Of a stretch of DNA of 64,000 nt, positions 3,782-52,834 are shown in pieces. The notes under the pieces were generated by a model that saw only the letters and a program-made list of their open reading frames with translations, was not told where the DNA came from and did no database searches. Position 1 is the first letter of the stretch. Every line of letters starts with the position of its first letter. Source of the DNA: Aidingimonas lacisalsi (lineage in GTDB: Bacteria; Pseudomonadota; Gammaproteobacteria; Pseudomonadales; Halomonadaceae); NCBI RefSeq assembly GCF_008079445.1, contig NZ_VRYH01000009.1:1-64000 (forward strand). The letters are read 5' to 3'. The translations under genes and the position numbers were made by a program.

Positions 3782-3805
3782 GCTGCACGTCCGCGAGATA
3801 ACCCA

Positions 3806-3879: not shown

Positions 3880-3976
3880 TTCATCACCCTTTGGGCGTTT
3901 CTTTCTTGAGGTAACGATTGCAATATGGTGTTTGGTGGCAGCATTATTGAAGGTAAGCCGCTGTTGGAGGTAGGCC

Positions 3977-31711: not shown

Positions 31712-31740
31712 ATCTGATGTGACGGAGGTTGGGCATATCT

Positions 31741-32994
31741 ATGCAGCAGGCTTCGGGGTGGCAGCGGGTTAACGGTTGGGGTGTGGTGGCCATTGCCGCA
31801 CTCCTGGTCACGCTTCCCTTGCTGTTGGAGGGGGTGTTGCTGTTGCTGCTGCCCGGGCTGGTGCTGGGGCTGTCGTTCCATGCCAGGTCGCTGTGGCTTG
31901 ATCGGGATGATGGGAAGCTGGTGACGGCACTGGTCGTATTCGGGGCGGTGTGGCTGGCGGATGTCGGTTGGCGGGGCGAGGGCCTGATGCCCTGGTCGAT
32001 GGCGCTCTGGCCACTGTGGGCGGTGGCCGGTCTGGTGTGGTTGCGCCGGTTCTGTCCGCCATTTCGTTACTGGTATTTCGGGATCGTGGCGGGTGCCTCG
32101 GGGGCCGGTGTGGTGGCGGTGATCGAGCGGTTGCTCGGGGCGGAGCGCGCCGGTGGGCATATCAATGCGATTCCGTTCGGTAATCTGTCGTTGCTGTTGG
32201 CGGCGATGTCAGTGGTGCTGGCACTGATGACACTGGAGAACGGGCGGTACCGATCATCTCGATGGCATCTGGTGGCTGCGGTGCTGGCCACGGTATGGGC
32301 GCTGGTGGCGATGGTGCTGTCGGGCACACGTGGAGCCTGGGTCGCCGTACCGGTGATGGGGCTCGTGATTGTATTAGCCTACCGTCGTAGTCTGTTCCGG
32401 TTGATTAATCCCTGGCTGGTGGCCGGGGTCCTGGTGGTGTGTTGCATCGTGGTGTTAGTCGCGCCTGTGGGAGTCATGCCACGCTTGCTGGAATTGGCCC
32501 AGGAGGTCGGTGCTTATCACCGTACCGGCGAGGCGGATACGTCATACGGAGCACGTGTCGAGATGTGGCGAACGGCCTGGCTGCTGTTCCAGTCTTCACC
32601 TTGGCTGGGTTGGGGGGAGGGGGATCTCATCGCCGGACGTGACATGTTGATCGCCGGCGCGTCGGTGTCACCGGCGATTCACTATTACGACCAACTCCAC
32701 AGCGATATTCTCGATACGCTGGCGCGACGGGGCATCGTCGGCGGTCTCGGCCTTGCCATGGTGTATGGCGTCCCGGCATGGCTTTTCATTCGCTATCGGC
32801 GGCATGCGTGTCCCGAAGTAAAGGCGTTGATGGTATCCGGCATACTTCTGGTGATTGCCTTTCTAATTTTCGGTATGAGTCAGTCCATGCTACGCGATTC
32901 CAGAGGTCTCATTGCCTACCTGGGATTTCTGGCAATCTTATGGGCACTGTTGCAACGACGAGTGTCATTGTTACAAAAAGAAACTGATCGTTAA
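31741..32994 (+). CDS. O-antigen ligase / Wzy-like membrane protein
   Basis: A 417-residue polytopic membrane protein with about 11 hydrophobic segments. The large periplasmic loop region includes GTRGAWVAV, the WLGWGEGD segment and HSDILDTLARRGIVGGLGL, typical of the Wzy_C/WaaL family, with a histidine thought to act in glycan transfer. It either polymerises repeat units or ligates glycan to an acceptor. The ATG at 31741 lies 12 bases after GGAGG. It precedes the export operon but is separated from it by a 330-base AT-rich leader, so it is probably transcribed separately. Confidence 0.85.
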   Translation: MQQASGWQRVNGWGVVAIAALLVTLPLLLEGVLLLLLPGLVLGLSFHARSLWLDRDDGKLVTALVVFGAVWLADVGWRGEGLMPWSMALWPLWAVAGLVWLRRFCPPFRYWYFGIVAGASGAGVVAVIERLLGAERAGGHINAIPFGNLSLLLAAMSVVLALMTLENGRYRSSRWHLVAAVLATVWALVAMVLSGTRGAWVAVPVMGLVIVLAYRRSLFRLINPWLVAGVLVVCCIVVLVAPVGVMPRLLELAQEVGAYHRTGEADTSYGARVEMWRTAWLLFQSSPWLGWGEGDLIAGRDMLIAGASVSPAIHYYDQLHSDILDTLARRGIVGGLGLAMVYGVPAWLFIRYRRHACPEVKALMVSGILLVIAFLIFGMSQSMLRDSRGLIAYLGFLAILWALLQRRVSLLQKETDR

Positions 32995-33327
32995 TCTCGC
33001 TATACACCCCACTTCGATGCCTGACTTGTATAGAGGTATCGATTGGTTTGTTTTAATATTTCTTTTTAAATCAGTAAATTACACTTTTATTGATTTTCTT
33101 AGTCCTCTCTCGATAAAAAGCATTAGAAAATCCCTCCGTGCAGAAACCCCGACTATATGTAATCTTATGTAGTGCAGGGAGTTTTATTGTAACTAAGTGT
33201 ATTAATCCCTTGTCGCATCGATATCGTTGCGATGGAAAGCGTTGTGCGGCTTGAGAGAATGCCGAGGTAACTCTGGGGCGGTAGCGTGGGTAAAGCATCG
33301 TTGATAACGAAAACAATAGGTACCGGT
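32995..33327 (+). promoter_or_regulatory. AT-rich leader of the polysaccharide operon
   Basis: About 330 bases without a gene, markedly AT-rich in its first half. It likely holds the operon promoter and a long untranslated leader that ends in the ops element. No specific -10/-35 pair can be chosen with confidence. Confidence 0.5.
33277..33288 (+). promoter_or_regulatory. ops element (RfaH recruitment site)
   Basis: GGCGGTAGCGTG matches the 12-base ops sequence of JUMPstart leaders exactly. In enterobacteria ops pauses RNA polymerase and loads RfaH, which suppresses Rho termination through long polysaccharide operons. It lies 40 bases before the wza start, the expected position. Whether this host has RfaH is not visible here. 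Confidence 0.85.
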
Positions 33328-34446
33328 ATGTTGATGCAGGGTGGACGTCACTGGTTGGGAGTTATCGCGCTATCAGCCGGCATCAGTGGCTGTGCAATGG
33401 CGCCTGGAGGGCATATCGATTATGAAACGGAATCCGTCTCGTTGGATGGCCTGGTCGATATCGAGCCGATTACGCCGGAGTTGGTCTCCGAGTACCGGGC
33501 CCGCCTGAACGGGAGCATTGCCAGCCCGATATCGCCGGCACTCAGTGCGGCGGTCACCGAGTACGAGTATCTGGTCGGGCCGGGCGATATCCTCAGCATT
33601 GTGGTCTATGACCATCCGGAGTTGACCATTCCCGCGGGTGGCGAAAGAAGCGCTGCCGAGGCGGGCAATGTCGTCCATCCCGATGGAACCCTCTTCTATC
33701 CCTATATCGGCCGGGTCGAGGTCGAGGGTATGACGGTCGAGGCGGTTCGCGACTTGTTGACTCGCCGGTTGTCCGAATACATCAACGACCCGCAGATCGA
33801 GGTGACCGTCGCTGACTATCGTGCCAAGAAGGTCTATGTCAGTGGCGCGGTCGGTTCGCCGGGCACCATTCCCATTACCAATGTGCCGTTGACGGCCATG
33901 GATGCCATCAGTCTGTCCGGTGGCATCAGCGGTGAAGGTAATTGGCATGAGGTGACGCTGACCCGCGATGACGAAGAGGAAGTTCTCTCCTTGTACGACA
34001 TGATGCAGCGGGGCGACCGGACACAGAACCGGCTGCTTCAGGACGGCGATATTCTGCATGTACCGACGCGGGAGAACCAGAACGTGGCAGTGCTCGGGCA
34101 GGTGCGCGCGCCGGGCAACCTCAATCTGGGCAATGAGCGGATAACGTTGACCGATGCATTGGCCCGGGCCGGCGGCGTGGTGGAAGAGCGGGCCGAGCCG
34201 ACGGGGATTTTCGTGATCCGCACCCACCGCGATGCCAGTGACAAGGTGGCCACGGTCTATCAGCTCGATATCAGCAATGCGGTGGCGCTGGCGATGGGTA
34301 CCCGGTTCCCGCTGGAACCGCAGGATATCATTTACGTGACATCGGCGCCGCTGGCTCGCTGGAATACCGTCATCAGCCTGCTGTTGCCCTCCGTCAACCT
34401 ACCGGGGTCGGTCGTGAATACCACCACGGACGTGAACGATCTGTGA
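33328..34446 (+). CDS. wza: Wza-type outer membrane polysaccharide export lipoprotein
   Basis: Forms the outer-membrane channel for capsule or exopolysaccharide. The 372-residue protein has a lipoprotein signal ending in ISGC (lipidated Cys about residue 21), a poly_export domain with YLVGPGDILSIVVYDHPELT near residues 80-100, and SLBB domains (KVYVSGAVGSPGTIP, VAVLGQVRAPGNL). The ATG at 33328 with AGGT six bases upstream is chosen over the GTG at 33286 that overlaps the ops element and would spoil the signal peptide. First of a wza-wzb-wzc set. The next gene overlaps its stop by four bases. Confidence 0.93.
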   Translation: MLMQGGRHWLGVIALSAGISGCAMAPGGHIDYETESVSLDGLVDIEPITPELVSEYRARLNGSIASPISPALSAAVTEYEYLVGPGDILSIVVYDHPELTIPAGGERSAAEAGNVVHPDGTLFYPYIGRVEVEGMTVEAVRDLLTRRLSEYINDPQIEVTVADYRAKKVYVSGAVGSPGTIPITNVPLTAMDAISLSGGISGEGNWHEVTLTRDDEEEVLSLYDMMQRGDRTQNRLLQDGDILHVPTRENQNVAVLGQVRAPGNLNLGNERITLTDALARAGGVVEERAEPTGIFVIRTHRDASDKVATVYQLDISNAVALAMGTRFPLEPQDIIYVTSAPLARWNTVISLLLPSVNLPGSVVNTTTDVNDL

Positions 34447-34904
34447 CATCGATGTTCGATTCGATTCTGGTGGTGTGCAGCGGCAATCTCTGTCGCAGTC
34501 CGGTGGCGACCGCCTTGTTGCAAGCCCGCCTTCCCGGTCGGGTGATCCACTCGGCCGGGTTGAATGCCAACCTGCAAGAGGGGCTGGGTGTGGCAAGTAC
34601 GGCCAGGGAGTTGGCCGAGGCGGATGGACTGGGTGTACACCACCATCGTTCGCGATCGTTACGCAGGGAATGGCTGGAAAACGTCGATCTGGTGCTAGTG
34701 ATGACCGAATCACAGCGGTTGGCGATCGGCGACATGGCCCCGGAAGCCACCGGCCGGACTTTCCTGTTCGGGCGCTGGCTCGAAGGGGGCGGCCCGCAGG
34801 GTGTGGAAATCCCCGATCCTTACCGCAAAAGCCGCGAAGCCTATGCCTATGTGCATCAGTTGCTCGTGAGGGCAGCCGACGAGTGGTATCACCGGCTGAT
34901 ATGA
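34443..34904 (+). CDS. wzb: Wzb-type low-molecular-weight protein tyrosine phosphatase
   Basis: Dephosphorylates the tyrosine kinase Wzc and so permits polymer assembly. The 153-residue enzyme has the P-loop CSGNLCRS near residues 11-18 (Cys-x5-Arg) and the acid-base aspartate in IPDPYRKS near the C-terminus. The start is GTG overlapping the wza stop (GTGA). An ATG three codons later is an alternative. Adjacent to its kinase, as in group 1 capsule and colanic acid loci. Confidence 0.93.
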   Translation: MTSMFDSILVVCSGNLCRSPVATALLQARLPGRVIHSAGLNANLQEGLGVASTARELAEADGLGVHHHRSRSLRREWLENVDLVLVMTESQRLAIGDMAPEATGRTFLFGRWLEGGGPQGVEIPDPYRKSREAYAYVHQLLVRAADEWYHRLI

Positions 34905-34923: not shown

Positions 34924-37197
34924 ATGACACAAATGCCCTACCTTCCCCATAGAGAACCGTCCTCTTCCGGCGGCAGCGATATCGATTTCGGTCGCTTGTT
35001 CGGCATGCTGCTGGATCACAAGTGGTTCATCATCCTCGTCACGGCGTTGTTCTTCGTTGGTGGCGTCGTCTATGCCGCACTGTCCACGCCAATCTACCAG
35101 GGTGATGCGCTGGTCCAGGTCGAGCGCCGCTCTTCGGTCAGTCCGTTGGGTGATCTGGACTCCATCATGGGCAATGAAGAGGCCAACACCTCGGCGGAAG
35201 TCGAGATACTGCGCTCACGGATGGTGCTGGGCAAAGTGGTCGATCGAACCGGGCTCGATACGCTGGTGATTCCCGAGCGGGTGCCGTATATCGGTGATTA
35301 CGTACGCCGCAACGGTATTGCCCGGCCCGAGCCGTTTTCGGTGCCGTACCTCTCGCAGTGGGGTATCGATGAGATCGACCTTCCCGACTTGCTGGGGATC
35401 GATACGGCGGCCTGGGGTGGCGAGAATGTGAGAGTCGGGCGCTTCGATGTCGAAGCATCGTTGCGGGGGTATCCCTTTACCCTCCGGGTCGAGGATGGTG
35501 ACAGTTACTCGCTCGTTCAGGGGGAACGGACGATCGGCCAGGGGCGCGTCGGTGACAATGTCACGTTCCTTGATGGCGATATGCACCTGCGGGTGTCGGA
35601 GATCACTGCGCCGGCCGGAGTGGAGTTTACCCTGGTCAAACAGACTCGCGCGGTGGCGGCCGGGTCGCTGGGGGCACGTCTTGGTGTGAGCGAGCAGGGC
35701 GCGAGTGGCGGTAGCAGCACCGGCATGTTGCGACTGCGCCTGACGGGTACTGACCGGGCCGAGATCCAGGATTCGCTCGATGCAATCAGTGAGGCCTTCC
35801 TGATGCAGAATGTCGAGCGTCAGTCCGCGCAGGCGGATCAGAGTCTCGAATTTCTGGAAGAGCAGACGCCGGAACTACGGACCAAGCTGAATGAGGCTGA
35901 AGAGCGGCTGAATCAGTATCGGGTCGACACCAATAGTGTCGATCTCAATTCGGAATCGCAGTCCGTGGTCAATCAGATGATTGCCGTCGAGCAACAGCTC
36001 AGTGATCTCGAGTTGCAGGAAGCCGAGCTGGCGCAGCGCTTCACGGGCAATCATCCCTCCTACCGGGCACTGGGACGTCAACGAGCCCACCTGCAGGAGG
36101 AGCGCGAAGAGCTCAATCAGCGGATCGACAGTCTGCCGGCGGCCCAGCAGGAAGTCGTGCGGCTGACCCGGGATGTCGAGGTGACCCAGGCGATCTATGT
36201 CAACCTGCTCAATCGCGCTCAGGAATTGCAGGTGGCCAAGGCCGGCACGATCGGCAATGTGCGAATCATCGATGATACCGTGGTCGGCGCCGGTCCGATT
36301 GCCCCGAATAAGCCGGTGATCGTCATGCTGGCGACTGTCATGGGTGGTTTCCTGTCAGTGGCGTTCGTCCTGGCGCGCGGGTTTCTCAACCGCGGCGTGG
36401 AAAACCCCGAACAACTTGAGGAACTTGGACTGCCGGTCTATGCGACCGTGCCGTTGTCCGACGCCCAGACCAAACTGGTCAAACGCATCAAGCATCGGCG
36501 TGACAAGAAGAGTCGAGCGGTCATCGGTGGGTTGCTGGCATCGACGAACCCGACTGATACCGCCATCGAGGCCATGCGAGGCCTGCGTACCAGCCTACAC
36601 TTCGCCATGCTGGACGCTATCAATAACAGCATCATGATCACCGGCCCGAGTCCGAATGTCGGCAAGAGCTTTCTGTCGGCCAATCTTGGGGCGGTCTGTG
36701 CCCAGGCCGAACAGCGGGTGCTGGTCATCGATGCCGATATGCGCAAGGGACACATTCACCATATCTTCGGCGACAAGCCCGATAACGGGTTGTCGGATGT
36801 CCTGTCGGGCAGATGCCATTGGCAGAAAGCCATCCGTTATACCTCGATCGAAGGGCTCTGTTATCTGTCGCGGGGTGTGGTCCCTCCCAATCCGTCGGAG
36901 CTGTTGATGCAGGAGCGGTTTTCACGCTTCCTGCAGAGTGTCAGCCCCGAGTTCGATCTTGTGATCATCGATACGCCGCCGATTCTGGCCGTCACCGATG
37001 CCGCGATTGTCGGCAAGCAGGTCGGAACGACGTTGATGGTCGCACGCTTCCAGTTGAATCCTCCCCGTGAAGTGAACATTGCCCTCAAGCGCCTCGAAAA
37101 CGCCGGTGTCGAGGTCAAGGGCTGCATCATGAACGCCCTCGAGAACAAGGCGGCCGCCAGCTACGGCTACGGGTACTACCATTACACCTACTCCTGA
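34924..37197 (+). CDS. wzc: Wzc-type tyrosine autokinase and chain-length regulator
   Basis: An inner-membrane protein of 757 residues controlling export and chain length. A Wzz domain with a TM helix lies near residues 35-58, a long periplasmic coiled-coil region at about 290-420, and a second TM near 460-480. The cytoplasmic BY-kinase has Walker A SPNVGKSF, Walker A' VLVIDADMRKG and Walker B LVIIDTPP. The C-terminus is the tyrosine cluster SYGYGYYHYTYS, the autophosphorylation tail. Stands directly after its phosphatase with a 19-base gap. Confidence 0.94.
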   Translation: MTQMPYLPHREPSSSGGSDIDFGRLFGMLLDHKWFIILVTALFFVGGVVYAALSTPIYQGDALVQVERRSSVSPLGDLDSIMGNEEANTSAEVEILRSRMVLGKVVDRTGLDTLVIPERVPYIGDYVRRNGIARPEPFSVPYLSQWGIDEIDLPDLLGIDTAAWGGENVRVGRFDVEASLRGYPFTLRVEDGDSYSLVQGERTIGQGRVGDNVTFLDGDMHLRVSEITAPAGVEFTLVKQTRAVAAGSLGARLGVSEQGASGGSSTGMLRLRLTGTDRAEIQDSLDAISEAFLMQNVERQSAQADQSLEFLEEQTPELRTKLNEAEERLNQYRVDTNSVDLNSESQSVVNQMIAVEQQLSDLELQEAELAQRFTGNHPSYRALGRQRAHLQEEREELNQRIDSLPAAQQEVVRLTRDVEVTQAIYVNLLNRAQELQVAKAGTIGNVRIIDDTVVGAGPIAPNKPVIVMLATVMGGFLSVAFVLARGFLNRGVENPEQLEELGLPVYATVPLSDAQTKLVKRIKHRRDKKSRAVIGGLLASTNPTDTAIEAMRGLRTSLHFAMLDAINNSIMITGPSPNVGKSFLSANLGAVCAQAEQRVLVIDADMRKGHIHHIFGDKPDNGLSDVLSGRCHWQKAIRYTSIEGLCYLSRGVVPPNPSELLMQERFSRFLQSVSPEFDLVIIDTPPILAVTDAAIVGKQVGTTLMVARFQLNPPREVNIALKRLENAGVEVKGCIMNALENKAAASYGYGYYHYTYS

Positions 37198-37205
37198 GTC
37201 CACGC

Positions 37206-39026
37206 ATGTTCCACCAACTCAAGGAACTCTACACGTTGCTGACCCGCGAGCAGCGCCGCAAGCTCAAGGCGTTGCAGTTGTTGGTAGTGATCATGTCGTT
37301 CACCGAAATCGCCAGCGTCGTCTCGATCGGGCCGTTCATGGCGCTGGTGGGTGATATTGAACAACTTCAGGGCAATGGCTGGTTGGCGGAGATCTATCAG
37401 TTCAGCGGTGCGGCAACACCCGAAGACTTCCTGTTCATGACGGGCATCATCGTCCTACTGTTGCTGGTGGTGGCCGGGCTGTTCTCCATGTACACGACCT
37501 GGCGTTTGTCTCTCTATGGAACCTATGTAGGTACGGAGATCTCCAGTCGACTCTACCGGTACTACATGCATCAACCCTGGCTGTTTCATACCACGGGTAG
37601 CAGCAGCTACCTGACCAAGCAGATCGCACAGGAGTGTCAGCGTGTCATCAACGGCATCATCACCCCGGTCATGGAGATGAACGCCAAGTTGTTGATGGCC
37701 AGCATGATGTCGGTGGCGATCTTTATCTACAATCCGGTCGTGGCACTGATTGCACTGGTACTATTCGGTGTTTCGTACTACGTCTTGTATAAGACGGTAC
37801 GCAAGAAACTGATCGATAATGGCCGAGACATTTCGGAGGCTCAGAATCAGCGTTATCGACTGATGGCGGAAGGATTCGGCGGTATCAAGGATGTGTTGTT
37901 GCTGGGTCGGCAACGTCTATTTACTTCACAGTTCAATAGGACAAGCCGGCATCTAGCATATGCCATGGGCACCAATCAGGCGCTACGACAGGTACCTCGG
38001 TATGCCATGGAGATAGTCGCCTTCGGTGCGGTGATCTTTCTGGTGTTGTATCTGTTGAGATCCCATCAGGGCAACCTGGGAAGCATCCTGCCAGTATTGT
38101 CGGTGTATGCCCTGGCGGGGTTCAAACTGCTTCCTGCCTTTCAGCAAACCTATGCCAGCATTTCCACCATTCGCGGCAACCTGTCGGCGTATGAGACGGT
38201 TCGGGATGATTTGTGGGCCAGTCGTGAGGGATATGTACCTGACGATTTCGCCACCTCCCGGGGAAGTGATGCGTCGACTGACCCCGTATTGATACCTGAG
38301 CACGACATTGTGCTTGAAAACATCGCGTTTCATTATCCAAACAAGCTGGAACCGGCATTGAAAGGCCTGTCCTTGACGATACCCGTCAATGAAGTCGTTG
38401 GACTGGTAGGCGCATCGGGATCGGGTAAATCCACTATCATCGATCTGCTGCTGGGCTTGATCGATCCCGATCCGGGTGAAGTCCTCATCGATGGTCAGCC
38501 TCTAACTCGCGATATCAAGCGTGCCTGGCAGAATTCGGTCGGTTTCGTGTCACAAAACATCTTCCTGGCCGATGCCAGTATTCGGCGCAATATCGCCTTT
38601 GGCTTGCCTGATGATCTGATAGATGAGGCGCGCGTCAAGCGGGCGGTTGAACTCTCGCACTTGAGTGAGTTGGTCGATGAGTTGGAAGAAGGGCTCGATA
38701 CCCGGGTGGGGGAGCGCGGCATTCAACTGTCCGGCGGACAGCGTCAGCGTATCGGCATTGCCCGCGCACTTTACCACGATGCCAGCGTATTGATCCTGGA
38801 TGAAGCGACCAGTGCGCTCGATGGCATCACCGAAAAGATCATCATGGATGCCATTCACGATTTCTCCGGCAGCAAGACCATCGTACTGGTGGCTCACCGG
38901 CTGGCGACCGTGAAGCAGTGCGATCGTATCTATCTGATCAGCCGCGGTCGGGTCGTCGACCAGGGCGATTACGACAGCCTGATGCAGGATAACGACACCT
39001 TCCGCCGTATGGCGCAGCACGCCTGA
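37206..39026 (+). CDS. ABC transporter with fused permease and ATPase (PglK/MsbA-like flippase)
   Basis: A 606-residue half-transporter. Six TM helices in residues 1-320 are followed by an ATPase with Walker A GASGSGKST, the signature LSGGQRQRIGIARAL, Walker B VLILDEATSALDG and the H-loop VLVAHRL. The length and type resemble PglK, which flips lipid-linked glycans. No Wzx flippase is seen in the window, so this protein may move the lipid-linked repeat unit across the inner membrane. It lies eight bases after wzc, inside the operon. Confidence 0.87.
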   Translation: MFHQLKELYTLLTREQRRKLKALQLLVVIMSFTEIASVVSIGPFMALVGDIEQLQGNGWLAEIYQFSGAATPEDFLFMTGIIVLLLLVVAGLFSMYTTWRLSLYGTYVGTEISSRLYRYYMHQPWLFHTTGSSSYLTKQIAQECQRVINGIITPVMEMNAKLLMASMMSVAIFIYNPVVALIALVLFGVSYYVLYKTVRKKLIDNGRDISEAQNQRYRLMAEGFGGIKDVLLLGRQRLFTSQFNRTSRHLAYAMGTNQALRQVPRYAMEIVAFGAVIFLVLYLLRSHQGNLGSILPVLSVYALAGFKLLPAFQQTYASISTIRGNLSAYETVRDDLWASREGYVPDDFATSRGSDASTDPVLIPEHDIVLENIAFHYPNKLEPALKGLSLTIPVNEVVGLVGASGSGKSTIIDLLLGLIDPDPGEVLIDGQPLTRDIKRAWQNSVGFVSQNIFLADASIRRNIAFGLPDDLIDEARVKRAVELSHLSELVDELEEGLDTRVGERGIQLSGGQRQRIGIARALYHDASVLILDEATSALDGITEKIIMDAIHDFSGSKTIVLVAHRLATVKQCDRIYLISRGRVVDQGDYDSLMQDNDTFRRMAQHA

Positions 39027-39065: not shown

Positions 39066-40076
39066 ATGGATTTGACGAACAGAACGATTCTGGTGACCGG
39101 TGCCGATGGTTTCATCGGCTCGCATCTGGTGGAGACACTGGTCAGGCGGGGCCATTCGGTCAGGGCGTTCGTGATGTACAACGCCTTCAATTCCTGGGGC
39201 TGGCTGGATCAGAGTGAACCGGATATTCGGGAAGCGGTCGACGTGTTTGCGGGCGACATTCGCGATCCGCATGGCGTCCGAAAGGCGATGACAGGCTGCG
39301 ATGTCGTACTGCACCTGGCGGCGTTGATCGCGATTCCGTATTCCTACCATTCGCCCGATACGTACATCGATACCAACATCAAGGGAGCGCTCAACGTACT
39401 GCAGGCAGCACGGGAGCTTGGCGTCGAGCGAGTGGTGCATACCTCGACCAGTGAAGTGTATGGCACGGCGCTCAGTGTGCCGATCGACGAGTCGCATCCA
39501 TTGCAGGGGCAATCTCCCTACTCGGCGTCCAAGATTGGTGCCGACCAACTGGCGCTGTCGTTTCATCGCTCGTTTGCTACCCCGGTGGCGCTGATTCGAC
39601 CGTTCAATACCTATGGCCCGCGCCAGTCCGCGCGGGCGGTGATTCCTACCATCATCACGCAACTGGCCGCCGGCAGCCGACGACTGCGGTTGGGCTCGCT
39701 GCATCCGACCCGCGACTTCAGCTATGTCGACGATACGGTGGCCGGTTTCATCAAGGTGGCCGAGTGTGACGACGCGGTGGGGCAGGCCATCAATGTCGGT
39801 AGTGGTTTCGAAATCAGTATTGGCGAGACGGCCAGATTGATTGCCGATCTGATGGGCCGCGAAGTGGCTATCGAATCCGACGATCAGCGGCTGCGCCCCG
39901 AAAAGAGCGAGGTCGAGCGGCTCTGGGCCGATACACGCCGCGCGGTATCCTGGCTGGGCCATGTGCCGACCTATGCTGGCGAGGACGGATTGAGTCGGGG
40001 GCTCGAGAAGACGATTGCGTGGTTCACGCAGACCGACAATCTGTCCCGCTACAAAGCCGACCATTACAACCTGTGA
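39066..40076 (+). CDS. legB: LegB-type NDP-sugar 4,6-dehydratase
   Basis: An extended SDR of 336 residues. TGADGFIGSHL near residues 11-21 is the NAD-binding loop. STSEVYG and the catalytic YSASK (about 155-159) are intact, and the C-terminal FTQTDNLSRYKADHYNL resembles LegB of legionaminic acid pathways, which makes the 4-keto-6-deoxy intermediate from GDP-GlcNAc. The following genes complete most of that pathway. A related 4,6-dehydratase with another NDP-hexosamine cannot be excluded. A short gap after the exporter gene suggests the same operon. Confidence 0.85.
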   Translation: MDLTNRTILVTGADGFIGSHLVETLVRRGHSVRAFVMYNAFNSWGWLDQSEPDIREAVDVFAGDIRDPHGVRKAMTGCDVVLHLAALIAIPYSYHSPDTYIDTNIKGALNVLQAARELGVERVVHTSTSEVYGTALSVPIDESHPLQGQSPYSASKIGADQLALSFHRSFATPVALIRPFNTYGPRQSARAVIPTIITQLAAGSRRLRLGSLHPTRDFSYVDDTVAGFIKVAECDDAVGQAINVGSGFEISIGETARLIADLMGREVAIESDDQRLRPEKSEVERLWADTRRAVSWLGHVPTYAGEDGLSRGLEKTIAWFTQTDNLSRYKADHYNL

Positions 40077-40118: not shown

Positions 40119-40745
40119 GTGTGTGACTTCGTGGTGCTTGGGGGAGGAGGGCATGCCCGGGTCATCATCCACGGGCTGCAGTCTCTTGGTCATCAGGTCT
40201 GCGGTTACACCGCGCTGGAGAATGTTGGTGCGCTGCGGGGTGTGCCGTATCTGGGCAGCGATATGCTGTTGGCCGAGCTGAAACCGCAATTGCCCGAGTA
40301 TGCCGCGCTGGGCATTGGCAAGGTGGTTCCCGATTCGCTTCGTAGCGGGTTGATGGACCGGCTGTTCAGACTCGGCTTCCGGCTGCCCGCTCTGATAATG
40401 CGGTACGCAGTCGTGCATGACGATGTCGATCTCGGCGAGGGATCGGTGATCCTGGATGGGGCGATCGTGGTTTCCGGCAGCCGACTTGGCCGGGCGTGCA
40501 TCATCAATACACACGCCAGTGTCGATCATGATTGTGTCATCGGTGACGACGTACATATCGCTCCCGGGGGGACGTTGAGTGGTGGTGTCGTGGTCGGGAA
40601 CCGCTGCATGATCGGGACCGGAGCCAAGCTGATTCACGGGGTGCGGTTGTGTGACGACTGCCTGATCGGCGCTGGCTCGACGGTCACGCGCAATATCGAT
40701 GTTCCCGGTACCTATGTCGGGACACCTGCCAGGAGACTCCCTTGA
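40119..40745 (+). CDS. PglD-like sugar O/N-acetyltransferase (LegH role)
   Basis: A 208-residue NeuD/PglD-family acyltransferase. An N-terminal Rossmann-like half (VVLGGGGHARVIIHGLQSLG) is followed by a left-handed beta-helix of hexapeptide repeats (GEGSVILDGAIVVSG, IINTHASVDHDCVIGDDVHI), with His in ASVDHDC as catalytic base. In nonulosonic acid loci such enzymes acetylate the 4-amino sugar. It starts at GTG with AAAGGTG upstream. Its stop overlaps the TTG start of the next gene. Substrate by context only. Confidence 0.84.
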   Translation: MCDFVVLGGGGHARVIIHGLQSLGHQVCGYTALENVGALRGVPYLGSDMLLAELKPQLPEYAALGIGKVVPDSLRSGLMDRLFRLGFRLPALIMRYAVVHDDVDLGEGSVILDGAIVVSGSRLGRACIINTHASVDHDCVIGDDVHIAPGGTLSGGVVVGNRCMIGTGAKLIHGVRLCDDCLIGAGSTVTRNIDVPGTYVGTPARRLP

Positions 40746-41761
40746 ACGATCTGGATAGCACCTTCGTGATCGCCGAAGCTGGTGTCAATCACAATGGCTC
40801 GATCGAGTTGGCCCTCGATCTGATCGAGACAGCCAAGCGCTGCGGGGCCGATGCCGTGAAATTCCAGGCTTTCCGGACGGATCGGTTGGTCACCCGGCAA
40901 GCCGGCAAGGCAGCGTATCAGCAACGAACGTCGCCGGAAGCGGAAACCCAGTACGCGATGCTCGAGTCACTGGAATTGTCCGAGGCACAATTCGCACTGA
41001 TTAGTGATCGGTGCGCAACGCTGGGGATCGAATTCATGGCGAGCCCGTTCGACGAAGCGAGCGCCTCGCTACTCGATGACATGGGGATGCGTCGCTTCAA
41101 GATTCCCTCCGGTGAGATCACTAATCTGCCGCTTCTGGCACATATCGGTGCCTTCGCCAAGCCGGTCATCCTGTCGACCGGGATGTGTCACCTGGCGGAC
41201 GTGGAACCGGCCTTGTACCGACTGTTGGATGCCGGCGCTGCGGATGTGACGCTGCTGCACTGCGTGACGGAGTATCCGGCGCCCTATGACGAGATCAATC
41301 TGACGGCGATGGATACGCTGGCTCGGGCGTTCGGCGTCAAGGTGGGCTATTCCGATCATACTCAGGGAACCGAGATTTCACTGGCGGCTGTCGCCATGGG
41401 AGCGGTGGTGCTGGAAAAACACTTCACTCTCGATACGACCATGCCCGGGCCGGATCACGCCGCTTCGCTGGCCCCCGATGACTTTCAGCGCATGGTGGAA
41501 GGCATTCGTCATATAGAGATGGCGCGAGGCGACGGCCGCAAGCGACCCGCTCCCTGCGAACAAGCGAATGCCAGCGTGGTGCGCAAGAGTATCGTCGTCA
41601 ACCGCCCCCTGGCAGCAGGAGATGTCATTACGGAAGCGCATGTCACCGTGAAGCGACCTGGTTGCGGTATGGCGCCCAGCTTGCTCGGAGCGGTGATCGG
41701 GCGGCAGGTGGCCAGGCCGTTGGCAGTCGATGAGTTGCTCGATTGGCAGGATCTGTCGTGA
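40742..41761 (+). CDS. legI: Nonulosonic acid synthase (NeuB/LegI family)
   Basis: Condenses a 2,4-diamino- or N-acetyl-hexose with phosphoenolpyruvate to form a nine-carbon acid. The 339-residue protein shows the NeuB barrel (FVIAEAGVNHNGSIELALDL, ADAVKFQAF, YSDHTQGTEIS, VLEKHFTLDTTMPGPDH) and a C-terminal antifreeze-like SAF domain (KRPGCGMAPS). Start at TTG with AGGAG upstream, overlapping the previous stop. Context with PtmE and LegB favours legionaminic acid over sialic acid. Sequence alone does not settle it. Confidence 0.9.
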   Translation: MNDLDSTFVIAEAGVNHNGSIELALDLIETAKRCGADAVKFQAFRTDRLVTRQAGKAAYQQRTSPEAETQYAMLESLELSEAQFALISDRCATLGIEFMASPFDEASASLLDDMGMRRFKIPSGEITNLPLLAHIGAFAKPVILSTGMCHLADVEPALYRLLDAGAADVTLLHCVTEYPAPYDEINLTAMDTLARAFGVKVGYSDHTQGTEISLAAVAMGAVVLEKHFTLDTTMPGPDHAASLAPDDFQRMVEGIRHIEMARGDGRKRPAPCEQANASVVRKSIVVNRPLAAGDVITEAHVTVKRPGCGMAPSLLGAVIGRQVARPLAVDELLDWQDLS

Positions 41762-42954
41762 GCCGTCGTCGTCTTTGGGTGCTGACATCTACACGGGCCG
41801 ATTACGGATTGTTGTATTGGTTGTTACGGGAGATCGATGGTGATGACGATCTGGAACTGCAACTCGCGGTGACGGGGTCTCATCTGTCAGCCGAGTTTGG
41901 TGAAACGGTCAAGGATATCGAGCGGGATGGTTTTCACGTGTATCGCCGCATGGAAATCCTGCTCTCCTCGGATACCCGGATTGCCATGACCAAGGCCATG
42001 GGGCTGGCGATGCTGTCCTGTGGTGAGGCTCTGGCCGAGGACCGGCCGGATATGGTGGTTCTGCTGGGTGACCGATTCGAGATCGTGCCGGTGGCATTGG
42101 CGGCCGTGACTCACGGGGTTCCCGTGGCGCATTTGCACGGCGGTGAGACGAGCCGTGGGGCACTGGATGACTACTTTCGCCATGCCGTGACCAAGCTGGC
42201 CAGCCTGCATTTTCCTGCCACTGAGACCTACCGCCGACGGATTCTGCAAATGGGAGAAAGTCCGGAAAGGGTCTACAACTACGGTGCGCCAGGCCTGGAT
42301 CACCTTCATCGCAGTGAACCGGTATCGCGTGAGGCCCTATCCGAGGTACTGGAACTGTCGCTCGACCGTCCCACCGCGATCGTGACTTACCATCCCGTCA
42401 CGATCGAGTCGGATCGTGCAACGGCGTCACCGGTATCCGCGCTGTTGGCGGCTCTCGATGCTCGCCCCGATCTTCAGGTCGTCTTTTCCAAGGCGAATGC
42501 CGATGCCAGAGGACGTGCCATCAATACGGTGCTGGCGCAGTGGTGTGAGGCGCATCCGGAACGCAGCCGTCTTTTCGACAATCTGGGCCAACGGCTCTAT
42601 CACGCCTGTCTGCATCATCTGGACCTGATGATCGGCAACTCCTCGAGCGGCCTGGTGGAAGCGCCGTCGTTCCGGCTGCCGGTCGTCAACGTGGGCAGTC
42701 GTCAGGAAGGCCGGCTGTTGGCCGACAATGTGATTTCGGTCGCCGATACCGTTGCGGCCATTTCACAGGGGATCGGCCAGGCGTTGGATCCGGCATTCCA
42801 GGCGAGTATCGCCGAGATGAGCAATCCCTATGACCATTTTGGCGATGGCAGCGCGTCGCGGCGGATCAAGGACGTTCTGAAACAGATACCGCTGGATGTC
42901 GCATTGATGAAAAAAGGGTTCGTCGACATGCCCGGGATAGCGGCACATGACTGA
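41758..42954 (+). CDS. legG: Hydrolysing NDP-GlcNAc-type 2-epimerase (NeuC/LegG family)
   Basis: Releases and epimerises the sugar for the synthase. The 398-residue GT-B-fold enzyme has STRADYGLLYWLLREI near the N-terminus, LLGDRFEIVPVALAA, AHLHGGETSRGALDD and the C-terminal GNSSSGLVEAPSF, which binds the nucleotide phosphates. The best start is the GTG at 41758, which overlaps the synthase stop (GTGA). The ATG-like longer frame is a TTG at 41743. Part of a tightly overlapping set. Confidence 0.9.
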   Translation: MSRRRLWVLTSTRADYGLLYWLLREIDGDDDLELQLAVTGSHLSAEFGETVKDIERDGFHVYRRMEILLSSDTRIAMTKAMGLAMLSCGEALAEDRPDMVVLLGDRFEIVPVALAAVTHGVPVAHLHGGETSRGALDDYFRHAVTKLASLHFPATETYRRRILQMGESPERVYNYGAPGLDHLHRSEPVSREALSEVLELSLDRPTAIVTYHPVTIESDRATASPVSALLAALDARPDLQVVFSKANADARGRAINTVLAQWCEAHPERSRLFDNLGQRLYHACLHHLDLMIGNSSSGLVEAPSFRLPVVNVGSRQEGRLLADNVISVADTVAAISQGIGQALDPAFQASIAEMSNPYDHFGDGSASRRIKDVLKQIPLDVALMKKGFVDMPGIAAHD

Positions 42955-42967
42955 GCGAGGGGATACG

Positions 42968-44032
42968 ATGACAGGCCTTGATGCACTAATGATCGATGCA
43001 CAGCGCAAGGTACTGGATGCGTTGCATCAATTGGAGGAGACGCGGCGCAAGATTCTCTTCGTGATCGACGAGGAGCAACGTCTGGCAGGTAGCCTGACGG
43101 ATGGGGATGTCAGACGCTGGATTCTCGGCGGTGGCAATCTGGACAGTGTCGTCGGTGACGTTTGTAATCGCGTTCCTCTCTCGGTAGATCCGCATGCCAC
43201 TCTGGACGTGATCCGACAGCTCATGTCGACGCACAAGATCCATTCCGTGCCGGTCTTGGATGTTCAGGGCAAGATCGTCGACATTCTCTTTCAGGAAAAT
43301 GTATGCCAGGACGCCACCATCGAGCCACATCGAGCGCCACTGGCCATGCCGGTGGTGGTGATGGCTGGCGGCAAGGGGACCCGGCTGGCTCCGTTTACCA
43401 GCGTGCTGCCCAAGCCCTTGATTCCGGTGGGCGAGAAAACCGCCATCGAGGTGATCCTCGATTCATTCGTCGAGCACGGCGTTGATGATTTCTACTTGTC
43501 GGTGAATTACAAGTCGAAACTGATACAGGCCTATTTCGAAGAGCTGGACCCGCCTTATCGCCTCAGCTATGTCCATGAGGACCAGCCGCTGGGGACGGGA
43601 GGAGGGCTGCATGCCCTGATCGGCAGGTTCGACGGTGATCTGATCGTGACCAACTGCGATGTCATAATCAAGGCCGATTACCACGCGCTGGTGGAGCATC
43701 ATCGCGACGAGGGCAACGACATTACCATGGTGGTATCGCTACGCCATTACGATATTCCCTATGGGATTTGCGATATCGTCGATAACGGACAGTTGTGTTC
43801 GATGCGCGAGAAACCGCATTACAACTTCCTGGTCAATACGGGGCTTTATGTCCTTCACGCCTCTGTACTCGAGTTGATTCCTGAAAACCGGTTCTACCAT
43901 CTCACCGACCTGATCGATGATGTGAAAGCCCAGGGTGGCCGGGTTGGTGTCTATCCCATCAGCGATAAAGCGTGGCTGGATACCGGTGAGTGGCAGCAGT
44001 ACTGCGAGACCATGGCACAACTGCGTTCCTGA
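42968..44032 (+). CDS. ptmE: PtmE-like nucleotidyltransferase with CBS pair
   Basis: A 354-residue protein with two N-terminal CBS domains (about 8-115), then a sugar nucleotidyltransferase domain with VVVMAGGKGTRLAPFTSVLP near residue 130. In Campylobacter PtmE makes the GDP-hexosamine that feeds LegB, distinguishing legionaminic acid (GDP-linked) from sialic or pseudaminic acid (UDP-linked) pathways. CBS domains suggest adenylate-type regulation. The ATG at 42968 with GAGGGG is preferred over the one at 42947, which lies inside the previous gene. Confidence 0.88.
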   Translation: MTGLDALMIDAQRKVLDALHQLEETRRKILFVIDEEQRLAGSLTDGDVRRWILGGGNLDSVVGDVCNRVPLSVDPHATLDVIRQLMSTHKIHSVPVLDVQGKIVDILFQENVCQDATIEPHRAPLAMPVVVMAGGKGTRLAPFTSVLPKPLIPVGEKTAIEVILDSFVEHGVDDFYLSVNYKSKLIQAYFEELDPPYRLSYVHEDQPLGTGGGLHALIGRFDGDLIVTNCDVIIKADYHALVEHHRDEGNDITMVVSLRHYDIPYGICDIVDNGQLCSMREKPHYNFLVNTGLYVLHASVLELIPENRFYHLTDLIDDVKAQGGRVGVYPISDKAWLDTGEWQQYCETMAQLRS

Positions 44033-44074: not shown

Positions 44075-44791
44075 ATGATCGACAGTCATCGTGTCATTGC
44101 CATGATTCCCGCCCGAGGCGGCAGCAAGAGCATCCCCGGCAAGAACATCCGCCTGCTTGGTGACAAGCCATTGATGGCCTGGGCGGTGGAAACGGCCTTG
44201 AGCGTCGATGAAATCGATCGTGTCATCGTGTCTACGGACAGTGAGGCGATTGCCGAGGTGGCGAGGATGTATGGGGCGGAGGTTTATGAGCGTCCCGGCC
44301 ACTTGGCGACGGATACGGCCTTGGTACTTGAAACGGTTCGCGATTTGATGGGTCGGTTACGCGCGCGAGGAGAGTCCGCGCTCTATGGGGTTCTCTTGGA
44401 GCCGACCGCGCCGTTTCGGCGCCCGGAGGATATCCGGGCTTGTTTACAACGTTTGCACGAGGAAGGCCTCGATTCCGTGGCGACCTTCAAACCTGTGGAT
44501 CTCAATCCACACCGGGCCTGGCGTTTGGAAAACGGGGAGCCTCAGCCGTTCATAGATGGCAGCATTCCTTGGTTACCTCGGCAGCAACTTCCAGAAGCGT
44601 ATCAGTTGAGTGGCGAGGTGTACGCTTTCCGTGTCGCTAGTCTCGATTTGACACAGCAGGGGATGCTGTTCGGTCGGATGGGAGCAGTGGTCGTCGACGG
44701 TAAGTCTTCATTGGATATCGATGATGAGCACGATTTCCGTCTCGCAGAGTGGATGATCAGGGAGGAGCGGCATGAATCGATCACTGCATGA
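44075..44791 (+). CDS. legF: CMP-nonulosonic acid synthetase (NeuA/LegF family)
   Basis: Activates the nine-carbon acid with CTP. The 238-residue enzyme has the signature [19 protein letters not shown] near residues 11-29, STDSEAIAE, and the catalytic region with ALVLETV and EPTAPFR. CMP-activated product would be the donor for the putative transferase encoded at 56891. Starts 42 bases after ptmE. Its end overlaps the next gene by 20 bases. Confidence 0.9.
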
Positions 44792-45569
44792 CTTGTTTGA
44801 CCTGTCCGGGCGCACGGCACTGATAACAGGAGGAGCCGGCCATCTTGGCAGTGCCATGGCGGAAGCTCTGGCCGAGCAAGGAGCCAATGTGGTGCTGGCT
44901 AGCCGCGACGTCGCCCATTGCGACGATGTGCTCAGGCAGCTTCGCGACCTGGCACCGGATAGCCGTCACCTGGTGTTGCCGCTGGATGTCACTGACCGGT
45001 CTTCGGTGCAACGCTGTGCAGAGACACTTCGTGAGCATTCTGGACGACTCGATATCCTCGTCAACAATGCCTGGTCAGGCAAGAAGAACAGCTGGCAGAG
45101 CATCGACGAAGATGACTGGTATCACGATGTCGATATCAGTCTCAACTCGGTGTTTCGGATGGTGAAGGAGTGTTATCCGTTGCTCAAGGAAAGCTCGGGA
45201 TGCATCGTCAATATCGCCTCGATGTATGGTCATGTCGCCCCCGACTATCGGCTCTACGAGGGCACGGATCACGCCAATCCGCCCAGCTACGGGGCAGCCA
45301 AGGCCGGAGTGCTCCAGTTCACGCGCTACCTCGCCAGTTTTCTCTCTCCCGATGCGATTCGTGTCAATGCCATTAGTCCGGGGGCCTTCCCGCATGCCAT
45401 CACCCAGGAGAATCGAGCATTCATGCAGCGCCTGGAGAACAAGGCGCCGGCGGGCCGGCTCGGTCATCCCCAGGATTTGAAAGGAGCTATTGCGCTTCTC
45501 GCCAGCGATGCCGGTGCCTACATGACTGGACAGAACCTGTGTGTCGATGGCGGATGGTCGGTCTGGTGA
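44772..45569 (+). CDS. ptmA: PtmA-like SDR (first of a paralogous pair)
   Basis: A 265-residue SDR resembling PtmA of flagellin-glycan loci. [15 protein letters not shown] is the NAD-binding loop. NNAWSG follows, and the catalytic Tyr-x-x-x-Lys is YGAAK. GGAGGAG lies directly upstream of the start, which sits inside the end of legF. It shares an LFDLSGR opening and YGH / RYLA segments with the SDR at 47692. The exact reaction is not established. In Campylobacter PtmA belongs to the hexosamine supply for legionaminic acid. Confidence 0.78.
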
Positions 45570-45580
45570 GGAACACTGGG

Positions 45581-46741
45581 ATGAACGTCTGTCTGGTCAA
45601 CGATACGTCCGATGATCCTAACTGGGGAGCCATCGCGACGTCTCAGGCGATGCGTGAGTTGATCCATGAGGCGGGTGGATCAGTGACCTCCACCTTGTAT
45701 CAATACCGTATCGGTTCTCCGCAACCGGACGATACGGTTGACACCGCTGAGTCAACGTCAGTCGATGGTGACAGAAAGAGCGTGGCTGATATCGCGCCAT
45801 GCGAGTGGGAAGCGTTCGACGAATGCGCGGCGCGCGTCCTGGATGGGGAGTGGTTTCCAGCGATCTATGGGGCATTGAGCGAATGCGATGTCGTACTGAT
45901 CAACGGTGAGGGGTGTATCTACGACCGAACGCGCCAGAGCCGCATGATCTACTTCATCGCTTATCTCGCCAAATGCTATCTGGGCAAACCCTCGGCCATC
46001 GTCAACCACAGTATCGTGATGAACGATCCCGTGTTGGTGGAAATTGCCGCGAATGTCTACCCGTATCTCGACGATATCGTCTTTCGCGAACCGGATTCGG
46101 CAATCGTCTGTCCCGGCGTGTCAGGGCATGTGGGGGCGGATGCCGCCTATATCCATTCGCCGAGACCGCTAGCGGCGTGGAACGGCACCTACGGTGACGG
46201 TTTTGATCCCGAACGGCCCTATGCATGTCTCGGCGGTGGGTCGGTATTTTTCCGTGGATTACGACCCGGGCACGATCCCTTGCCGGGTGTCATGCAGTTG
46301 TGCGAGCGATTGCGGGACGCTGTCGGGCAGATCGTGCTGACGGCCTCTTCCCACAAGGATTTGAGCCTCATGACTCCCGTGTCGAGAGAGCTCGGTCTGC
46401 CGCTGATCGATATCGATAACTGTGTGCAAGAGGCGGTCGATGTGCTGGGCCATGCCGGGGTCTATGTCGGAGCACGATGGCACCCCGGTATTTTCGCGCA
46501 TCGCGGCGGAACCCCGGTGATCGCCTGGACGGAGCATACGCCCAAGATGACGGCATTTCTCAAGCAGGCCGAATTGTCACAACGACCGTTCGATCCGTTT
46601 CTCATCGGGGAACAACTCGACGATATCGTAATGCTGGCGACCACTTACCTGGACGCAGGCGACGAACTCCGGGATCGACTGCGCGCCGGTGCGCAACGGC
46701 TGGAATACAAGACGCGTGACAATGTTCGTCTGCTCGGTTGA
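45581..46741 (+). CDS. Polysaccharide pyruvyl transferase family protein
   Basis: A 386-residue protein with a two-lobed GT-B-like fold. It shows NDTSDDPNWGAIATSQAM at the N-terminus, VLINGEGCIYDRTRQSRM around residues 107-124, a central CPGVSGHVGADAAY, and the C-terminal GARWHPGIFAHRGGTPVIAW. Family members ketal-link pyruvate to sugars or transfer glycosyl-like groups. The ATG at 45581 is preferred, since GAGGA precedes it and the longer frame lies inside the SDR gene. It might decorate the nonulosonate glycan. Confidence 0.75.
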   Translation: MNVCLVNDTSDDPNWGAIATSQAMRELIHEAGGSVTSTLYQYRIGSPQPDDTVDTAESTSVDGDRKSVADIAPCEWEAFDECAARVLDGEWFPAIYGALSECDVVLINGEGCIYDRTRQSRMIYFIAYLAKCYLGKPSAIVNHSIVMNDPVLVEIAANVYPYLDDIVFREPDSAIVCPGVSGHVGADAAYIHSPRPLAAWNGTYGDGFDPERPYACLGGGSVFFRGLRPGHDPLPGVMQLCERLRDAVGQIVLTASSHKDLSLMTPVSRELGLPLIDIDNCVQEAVDVLGHAGVYVGARWHPGIFAHRGGTPVIAWTEHTPKMTAFLKQAELSQRPFDPFLIGEQLDDIVMLATTYLDAGDELRDRLRAGAQRLEYKTRDNVRLLG

Positions 46742-46784: not shown

Positions 46785-47711
46785 ATGGTCACACGAGTCG
46801 GTATGCTAGGCGTGAGCGAAGGTAACGGTCACCCCTTTTCGTTCGCCACGATCATCAACGGTTACCGTGGTCACGGTCTTAAAGAGGCCGGTTGGCCGGG
46901 AATCGATGACTATGTGCGCCGCCGCCATGACTCGGAGTTTGGGGTCGGCGATATGCGTGTGACTCATGCCTGGACGCAGGAGAGCGAACAAACGTCAGTC
47001 CTGTGTGAAGCTACCGGCATTCCCAATGCGATGAAATCGGTCAGGGACATGATCGGTGAGGTGGATGCCGTAATCATTGCTCGTGATGATCCCGAGAGTC
47101 ATCGAGAACTGGCGATCCCCTTTCTGGAGGCCGGTATCCCGGTGTTCATCGACAAACCCCTGACGCTGGATCCCGATGACTTGAGAGATTTTCTCCCTTA
47201 TCTCCAGCAGGGAAAGCTGATGTCGTGCTCGGGCATGCGCTATGCGAAGGAACTGGATGCCATTCGTGACGGCCAGGTGGAGCATGGCGATCTGAAAGTC
47301 GTACGCGGCACGATCGTCAAGGATTGGGCCCGCTATGGCATCCATCTGCTGGACGCGATCCTGCCGCTGTTACCGGCCCGCCCGCTGGCAGTGACACCGT
47401 TGCCGGGTCGGCACGAGTCGGTGCTGGTCACCTTGGCGGATGGTTTGAGCCTGACTCTGGATGCGCTGGGAGACGCGCCGGCCACCTTTCGTATCGAATT
47501 GATGGGAAGTCGAGCCATTAGCCGAGTCGACATAGCCGATAACTTTTCGATGTTTCGTCGTACGCTCTGGGAGTTCCAGCGCATGATCGTCGATCGACGC
47601 CCCCCGATTCCGGTGACGACGACCCTCGACTCCGTGCTCACCCTGATCGCCGGGCAACGGGCGCTATCCACTCGCAAGGAGGTTGCACTGGATGACTTCG
47701 ACCTATCGTGA
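46785..47711 (+). CDS. Gfo/Idh/MocA family oxidoreductase
   Basis: A 308-residue NAD(P)-dependent sugar oxidoreductase. An unusual N-terminal stretch (VGMLGVSEGNGHPFSFATII) replaces the usual GxGxxG loop. DAVIIARDDPESH, VFIDKPLT (the variant EKP motif) and WARYGIHLLD with a catalytic His follow. It stands between the pyruvyltransferase-family gene and the second PtmA-like SDR and overlaps the latter by 20 bases. A role in modifying the nonulosonate or its precursor is inferred. Confidence 0.78.
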   Translation: MVTRVGMLGVSEGNGHPFSFATIINGYRGHGLKEAGWPGIDDYVRRRHDSEFGVGDMRVTHAWTQESEQTSVLCEATGIPNAMKSVRDMIGEVDAVIIARDDPESHRELAIPFLEAGIPVFIDKPLTLDPDDLRDFLPYLQQGKLMSCSGMRYAKELDAIRDGQVEHGDLKVVRGTIVKDWARYGIHLLDAILPLLPARPLAVTPLPGRHESVLVTLADGLSLTLDALGDAPATFRIELMGSRAISRVDIADNFSMFRRTLWEFQRMIVDRRPPIPVTTTLDSVLTLIAGQRALSTRKEVALDDFDLS

Positions 47712-48516
47712 CCTGTTCGATCTGAGCGGTCGTGTCGCCATCGTCACTGGAGGGGCCGGCATCCTGGGGCGTCATTTCTGTCTAGGGTTGGCTGAGCATG
47801 GCGCCAATGTCGTCGTGGCCGATGTGGATGGCGGGGCGGCGGAGGCCTATGCCGGTGAGCTGGAAAGCAAGACGGGCGTGTCCTGTATCGGCATGGCGTG
47901 TGATGTGGCTTGCGAGTCGTCGGTGGAACGCCTGGCGGCAGCCACTCTGGAACATTTCGGCAGGATCGATGTGCTGCACAACAATGCGGCGAGTAAATCC
48001 GACGATCTCGAGGCATTCTTCGCACCGGTCGAAGAGTACAGTCTAGCCGAGTGGCGCAAGATCATGGCGGTCAATCTGGATGGGGTCTTCCTGGTCTCCC
48101 GGACGGTCGGCAAGCGCATGATCGAGCTGGGCCGGGGTGGCAGCATCATTCATACTGGCTCCATCTACGGGCATCTGGGCAGCGACTCACGTATCTACGA
48201 AGGGTCGGAGTATCTGGGAACGGCGATCAACACGCCACCCGTCTATGCGGCGTCCAAAGCCGGTGTCGCGGGTTTGGCGCGCTATCTGGCCACTCAGTGG
48301 GCCACTCACGGCATTCGTGTCAATACGCTGGTGCCGGGCGGTGTGGAAAGCGGCCAGAACGATATCTTTCAGTCGCGCTATTCGCAGCGAGTGCCGCTGG
48401 GGCGCATGGCGCAAGTCGGCGATCTGGTCGGGGCGTCGATCTATCTCGCCTCGGAAGCCTCTCGTTACGTTACCGGCCAATCGCTGTTCGTCGATGGTGG
48501 TTTGAGCGCCTGGTAA
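47692..48516 (+). CDS. PtmA-like SDR (second of the pair)
   Basis: A 274-residue SDR with TGGAGILGRHFCLGL, NNAAS and the catalytic YAASK. AAGGAGG lies nine bases upstream of the ATG at 47692, which is within the end of the oxidoreductase gene. It resembles the SDR at 44772 (DLFDLSGR opening, YEGS/YEGT segment and ARYLA), so the two probably arose by duplication and now act on related sugars. Differences in the substrate loop suggest different substrates. Confidence 0.8.
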   Translation: MTSTYRDLFDLSGRVAIVTGGAGILGRHFCLGLAEHGANVVVADVDGGAAEAYAGELESKTGVSCIGMACDVACESSVERLAAATLEHFGRIDVLHNNAASKSDDLEAFFAPVEEYSLAEWRKIMAVNLDGVFLVSRTVGKRMIELGRGGSIIHTGSIYGHLGSDSRIYEGSEYLGTAINTPPVYAASKAGVAGLARYLATQWATHGIRVNTLVPGGVESGQNDIFQSRYSQRVPLGRMAQVGDLVGASIYLASEASRYVTGQSLFVDGGLSAW

Positions 48517-48542
48517 CCCTTTCTCGTGCAGGAGCAATCAGC

Positions 48543-49532: not shown

Positions 49533-49578
49533 TTGTTATGTCTTGGATCACTCTGCCGAAGACGATAAGGGTATTGAT

Positions 49579-52440: not shown

Positions 52441-52605
52441 ATGAATATGCGATACGAGCCCTTCCATGAGTTTAATATGGTTAGGCTAATGGATGGTCGA
52501 CTAAGAGTACTCCAATACCACGGCAGCCCAGCGCCTATAATGCTGCCATACAACCTCACCATGAAGGAAGTAAACGGTCTAGGAACCCCAAATATACCGG
52601 CCTGA
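52441..52605 (+). other. 54-codon frame, possibly the 5' end of a gene cut by an IS66 element
   Basis: ATG-initiated frame with MRYEPFHEFNMVRLMDGRLR near the start and PYNLTMKEVNGLGTPN near the end. The peptide reads like a genuine protein start. GAGG precedes it. It stops in a palindrome exactly where IS66-like sequence begins. It may be a truncated glycan gene. The remaining AT-rich sequence from 52234 to 52440 holds nothing recognisable. Confidence 0.35.
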
Positions 52606-52616
52606 ATCAGGCCGGT
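52596..52616. repeat. Perfect palindrome joining two convergent stop codons
   Basis: ACCGGCCTGA, one A, then TCAGGCCGGT. The left arm contains the TGA of the 54-codon frame and the right arm the complementary TGA of the IS66 remnant. It could serve as a bidirectional terminator or be an element-end structure. Confidence 0.75.
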
Positions 52617-52834
52617 AGGGTGTCTTTCCACTGCCAGGGCAGCAGGGCGTCGAGGCCGTCATCCTTACCGAGGGTGGACAGCGTCTCGAACACGAATTGC
52701 AGTACGCGTAGGGCGAGAGACCATTGGCCTTGGCCGTCTTGATCAGACTGTAAGTGGCTCCACTGGCCTGCGTTGTCAACGCCAATGAAGGATGTCCGGT
52801 TTGGGGGTGCGGCGTTTTTCTTGGACTCTTTCAT
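52607..52834 (-). pseudogene. IS66 family transposase remnant (C-terminus)
   Basis: Fragments in two frames give SGATYSLIKTAKANGLSPYAY and then ETLSTLGKDDGLDALLPWQW, the end of IS66 transposases. The frame breaks near 52690 and the N-terminal 400-plus residues are missing, so it is dead. From 52835 to 52943 nothing is recognised. Confidence 0.8.

Follow-up and report, generated by a model that had tools for sequence, protein, structure and literature searches.

In Escherichia coli, RfaH and the ops element suppress operon polarity in surface-polysaccharide operons as well as in hly and tra, and polysaccharide and nonulosonate operons are the usual type of RfaH target. UpxY, LoaP and TaA are likewise NusG-family antiterminators of long operons. 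Our search of the literature found no report of RfaH/ops in the Halomonadaceae. We analyzed a 64,000-nt stretch of DNA from the halomonad Aidingimonas lacisalsi (the window), which carries a 12-mer identical to ops; as in E. coli, it lies on the coding strand in the leader of a long polysaccharide operon, and rfaH is a lone gene apart from its targets. The targets predicted in halomonads differ from those of E. coli in that they include integron platforms, Wzz genes and a type VI effector array, the last in a single relative. Judging from sequence comparisons, we consider it very likely that the 12-mer in the window is a working ops element, at which RfaH would be loaded and the long polysaccharide operon read through.

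The ops element and the wza operon

The element, GGCGGTAGCGTG, occupies positions 33277-33288 (+ strand) within the 333-nt gap that separates an O-antigen ligase/Wzy_C family gene (31729-32994, +; PF04932, E 8.8e-23) from wza and forms the non-coding leader of the wza operon (32995-33327, +). It starts 282 nt into the gap, the preceding gene stopping at 32994, and ends 39 nt short of the wza ATG at 33328; the exact ops before wza that the initial annotation had claimed is confirmed. No other exact copy is present in the window. Sites with up to two mismatches number 14, compared with 6.7 ± 2.4 in shuffled sequences, and the other 13 each carry two mismatches. A simple scan of the leader (32995-33327) matched no sigma-70-like promoter. 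The element ends in GTG (33286-33288), a potential in-frame start of the wza reading frame; a start at ATG 33328 yields the more typical lipoprotein signal.

Downstream of the leader, genes on the + strand run from 33328 to at least 50868. The first three are wza, encoding the outer-membrane polysaccharide export lipoprotein (33328-34446; NF011658 above cut-off; Poly_export, SLBB and Wza_C domains), whose nearest relative is found in Aidingimonas halophila (96%), in keeping with a halomonad origin of the DNA, wzb, encoding a low-molecular-weight protein tyrosine phosphatase (34443-34904; PF01451), and wzc, encoding a polysaccharide co-polymerase/tyrosine autokinase (34924-37197). They are followed by genes for an ABC transporter with membrane and ATPase domains (37206-39026), an NAD-dependent sugar epimerase/dehydratase (39066-40076), a PglD-like hexapeptide acyltransferase (40119-40745), a NeuB-family nonulosonate synthase (40742-41761), a UDP-GlcNAc 2-epimerase family protein of the NeuC type (41743-42954), a nucleotidyltransferase with CBS domains (42947-44032), a CMP-sugar cytidylyltransferase (44075-44791), a short-chain dehydrogenase (44772-45569), a polysaccharide pyruvyl transferase (45539-46741), a GFO/IDH/MocA oxidoreductase (46785-47711), a polysaccharide deacetylase (48051-49532) and a DUF4910/DUF2172 aminopeptidase-like protein (49429-50868). 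The combination of wza-wzb-wzc with the NeuB, NeuC-type, cytidylyltransferase and pyruvyl transferase genes suggests that the product is an acidic, nonulosonate-containing surface polysaccharide. A terminator-like hairpin at 52595-52617 (+) may mark the end of the operon; as a class such hairpins are not above chance, the scan of the operon stretch giving 16 matches vs 14.0 in shuffles.

Using the reversed pattern as the control for all ops counts, we found six exact ops copies and one control copy in the whole genome (3.95 Mb, 27 contigs). Two of the six lie within genes (L001, L005) and four in non-coding leaders, namely the copy before wza, one beside an integron integrase gene on contig C5 and two on contig C11, one before each of two tandem Wzz-domain genes and about 1 kb apart (L185, 7325 and 8329).

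RfaH in Aidingimonas lacisalsi and its co-occurrence with ops

Two NusG-family proteins are encoded in the genome. The gene of one, NusG itself, sits in secE-nusG-rplK-rplA; the gene of the other, RfaH (L008), stands separately. L008 scores 168 bits on the RfaH model TIGR01955 (cut-off 144.5), and its best PDB match is E. coli RfaH. Unlike UpxY and LoaP, it passes the RfaH models only (TIGR01955 and NF006534), remaining below the cut-offs for NusG, LoaP and UpxY, and it differs from UpxY, LoaP and TaA in being encoded outside its target operon.

The ops-contact residues of E. coli RfaH, taken from PMC5995543, were compared with 31 halomonad RfaH sequences, in which a few loci represent one gene fetched twice. 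K10, R16, Q24, T72, R73 and G74 are present in all 31 and H20 in 25; K10, R16, Q24 and R73 thus represent a likeness to the E. coli protein, from which the halomonad proteins differ in that R23, an ops contact in E. coli, is replaced by N in 27 of the 31, Aidingimonas lacisalsi included, and in that the HTTT motif (65-68) reads N-W-R/A/G-P. At the interface of the two domains, E48, L142 and R138, the last of which we take to be an interface residue, are found in all 31 sequences, and F130 in 29. For E48 and L142 this role is described in PMC13015549. In the RfaH/ops system this C-terminal domain is an autoinhibited alpha-hairpin that switches fold; its AlphaFold model here is of low confidence and beta-like and does not confirm autoinhibition.

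Of 34 wza loci in halomonads, 30 retain exact ops in the 700 nt that precede the match, with flanks that have diverged among the conserved leaders, and one further locus has a single mismatch. The initial annotation had named an rfaH homologue in the genome and conservation of the 12-mer upstream of wza in relatives as checks on its claim; both came out in its favor, the former with a protein above the TIGR01955 cut-off and distinct from NusG. None of 32 non-halomonad Wza relatives, some with little upstream sequence, has a site within one mismatch of ops. Of the 34 genomes with those wza loci, 32 encode an RfaH that scores above cut-off; despite RfaH, exact ops is absent at wza in L049, L061, L109 and L059, the last with one mismatch. 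In Halomonas sulfidaeris (L070, G597) ops before wza is kept and rfaH is broken, and in Kushneria avicenniae (L073, G600) ops is likewise kept and rfaH was not found; a recent loss of rfaH is possible in both.

We extended the comparison to 201 halomonad genomes, comprising 181 with RfaH, 16 without and 4 with intermediate scores. The RfaH-bearing genomes contain 994 exact ops copies vs 293 of the control (mean 5.5 vs 1.6), the RfaH-less genomes 17 vs 23 (mean 1.1 vs 1.4) and the four intermediate ones 12 vs 11. The excess differs between RfaH-bearing and RfaH-less groups at p = 2e-9 and is confined to RfaH-bearing genomes. Non-coding locations account for 70 of the 79 ops sites that were read, compared with 42% of 635 control positions. 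In one genome (G032), several ops leaders are nearly identical and carry 9-bp hairpins (L201, L202); a gene near one of them (L202) encodes an N-terminal VasX domain, of a type VI secretion effector family.

These data bear on two other readings of the 12-mer. According to the first, it is a functionless chance match, as the two chance-like copies within genes and a control frequency of about 1.6 per genome might suggest. However, computed from that control rate over both strands, the probability of an exact ops arising by chance on one strand of a 333-nt leader is ~7e-5, and the conservation of ops between diverged flanks in 30 of 34 wza leaders, together with its excess solely in RfaH-bearing genomes, already refutes a chance match, to which we assign a probability close to nil. 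According to the second, ops serves for pausing alone, setting the time for the hairpin to fold or for ribosomes to load, and its partner is NusG instead of RfaH. PMC5995543 calls ops an exemplar of a consensus pause, and two genomes retain the element without an intact rfaH, both of which fit such a role; yet RfaH-less genomes show no excess of ops and most of the residues by which RfaH specifically contacts ops are conserved, which makes a pause-only function highly improbable.

A leader hairpin adjoining ops

The leader contains a predicted RNA hairpin that abuts ops, with arms at 33252-33257 (TGAGAG) and 33271-33276 (CTCTGG; 33252-33276, + strand), and is supported by covariation across halomonad leaders. 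We aligned 30 wza leaders, that of the window and those of 29 relatives, leaving out L052, which is close to L051. In this alignment, a six-pair helix ends directly at ops and five of its six pairs show compensating changes. Pairing is seen in 92.5% of cells vs 76.1% in shuffles, and the covariation score is 0.66 compared with 0.33 ± 0.03 in shuffles and at most 0.22 when the partner is slid. The window itself forms five of the six pairs, with one mismatch, and its hairpin is weak, giving no folding-energy signal (z = 0.4); when the 38 nt 5' of ops are folded one sequence at a time, the energies mostly do not fall below those of shuffles, significance being reached only in the comparative test. 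Among 53 distinct non-coding leaders, 27 have an ops-adjacent stem (weight ≥5; 5.4 in shuffles) and 26 do not, so that the hairpin is frequent without being present everywhere. The wza leaders also share a conserved GGC/GCC motif, with 83.5% of cells paired; the helix it could form, a pseudoknot with the main stem, shows no compensating change and is not claimed here.

The halomonad hairpin resembles JUMPstart (RF01707) in that its foot touches ops and in the U-G pair at -1, which the E. coli C JUMPstart leader has as well and which occurs in 23 of 29 halomonad leaders. It differs from JUMPstart in its loop and stem sequences. Rfam searches of the window leader (E up to 5) and of 20 loci gave no JUMPstart match, and RF01707 matched in none of 19 genomes, the E. 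coli control being positive and the gathering threshold not reached. The halomonad hairpin appears to work like JUMPstart and is not classed as a member of RF01707. A foot spacing of 11-12 nt is that of hairpin-stabilized pauses. Since E. coli polymerase pauses at U11 of ops (PMC11001881), the foot of the halomonad hairpin would trail the 3' end of the paused RNA by 11-12 nt. The same source sets the E. coli ops complex apart from the hairpin-stabilized pause type.

The covarying hairpin that touches ops and the conserved GGC/GCC motif would also be expected if the leader acted as an RNA element alone, an EAR-like antiterminator or an attenuator, with the 12 bases as its RNA end and RfaH uninvolved. 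This is improbable in light of the 12-mer tracking RfaH presence across genomes and of its occurrence in leaders that lack an adjacent hairpin (the 26 of 53 above). In all probability, the element in the window is a genuine RfaH/ops site whose leader resembles JUMPstart, and the following mechanism is expected for it. RNA polymerase coming from a promoter upstream of the wza operon would pause at ops, as it does at U11 in E. coli, exposing G5 and T6 in a small hairpin of the non-template DNA strand. RfaH, the product of a gene at another place in the genome, would bind the exposed ops bases and stay on the polymerase, where it presumably excludes NusG and Rho and couples ribosomes, and the wza operon would be read through. 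The leader RNA hairpin may limit backtracking or help to hold the ops pause.

ops ahead of integron platforms

Among the 73 listed ops sites of ten relatives that were read, one class lies 3' of integron integrase genes and points antisense through intI toward attI. In the 201 halomonad genomes, 48 integrase places score above cut-off; 46 were read via the integrase list and a 47th (G070) via the ops set, and G075:C25 was left out of the ops counts. At the 43 intI loci of RfaH-bearing genomes, ops is exact in 26, has one mismatch in 6 and is missing in 11 (32/43 with a site), and it lies 1-69 nt past the integrase stop, the distance being judged from the match end in L248 and L252, where the intI frame is disrupted. 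RfaH-less genomes have ops at one of four intI loci; the difference from 32/43 (p = 0.07) is not significant alone. In L245 (G187), an exception to the co-occurrence, ops is present at the integron integrase and only NusG was found in the genome.

A selection by attI, which was detected in 62 of 201 halomonad genomes (reversed control 0), gave a similar picture: of 30 loci read, 21 have ops on the same strand in the 1500 nt upstream of attI (15 exact, 6 with one mismatch) and none has it on the opposite strand. Outside the family, a class-wide sample of 369 genomes yielded ops at one of the 30 best intI loci, in an RfaH-bearing genome (G296), and the link is therefore not general outside halomonads; the composite pattern was found in only two of the 369 genomes, G296 and Aidingimonas lacisalsi itself (G000).

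In the Aidingimonas lacisalsi integron (L186, G000:C5:1-14000), ops at 3981-3992 (- strand) lies just past the stop of intI (2922-3959, +) and reads toward attI and a cassette array that extends to the contig end. This locus carries an IntI integrase (TIGR02249, 407 bits), attI, and attC sites with an R'' that corresponds to the R' before it. Its attI ends TACCTG/TTATGA and is followed by TCATAAC..GTTAGCC; the next attC sites, identified by eye, are GGCTAAC..GTTGGAT, ATCCAAC..GTTATGC and GCATAAC..GTTAGAG. The automatic chain confirmed only the first link in this array. In relatives, attC chains reach six links in L259 and four in L195 and L256, shuffles giving at most three; chains of two to three links, including L194, L257 and most of the Aidingimonas lacisalsi array, are at shuffle level. 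Stricter first attC scans found nothing, and for most arrays a relaxed scan gave results close to background.

In L195, L205 and L194, ops is present and attI has no adjacent integrase. L195 and L205 each have two ops-leader copies in the genome, 7.4 kb and 2.2 kb apart, respectively, and in L195 the first copy is followed by attC-like sites. In L194, ops precedes the integron platform in yet another, third arrangement, the order being ops, glyoxalase-family gene, attI and attC-like sites. We also considered ops as part of an intI terminator; the element is preceded by several different upstream sequences, with intI present or absent, which disfavors this idea.

From the position and orientation of these sites we infer a function in the integron. 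In the standard model, cassette expression is lost as the distance from the Pc promoter grows (PMC11014356). An ops element ahead of the platform would load RfaH on the polymerase before intI, in antisense, and attI are crossed, promoterless cassettes far from the first promoter would thereby be transcribed, and the cassette pool would become part of the RfaH surface-polysaccharide regulon. We moderately favor the view that in the Halomonadaceae, and at least once outside, RfaH serves as a built-in antiterminator of integron cassette arrays whose cassettes join this regulon. Two observations in Vibrio count against it: as reported in PMC11014356, attC sites do not terminate transcription, and Rho inhibition gave no higher expression from gene-less cassettes. 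Literature searches on RfaH with integrons, on integron antitermination and on Rho-dependent termination in integrons found no report of such a link, and neither RfaH nor NusG appears in the text of PMC8876359.

The site in the window extends the well-studied E. coli mechanism to the Halomonadaceae, with a covarying leader hairpin in the JUMPstart register. The family-wide link between ops and integrons, the part that a specialist would not expect, matters more than the site in the window: if the antitermination model is true, ops ahead of an array would offer a direct means of maintaining the expression of distant cassettes and would tie it to RfaH.
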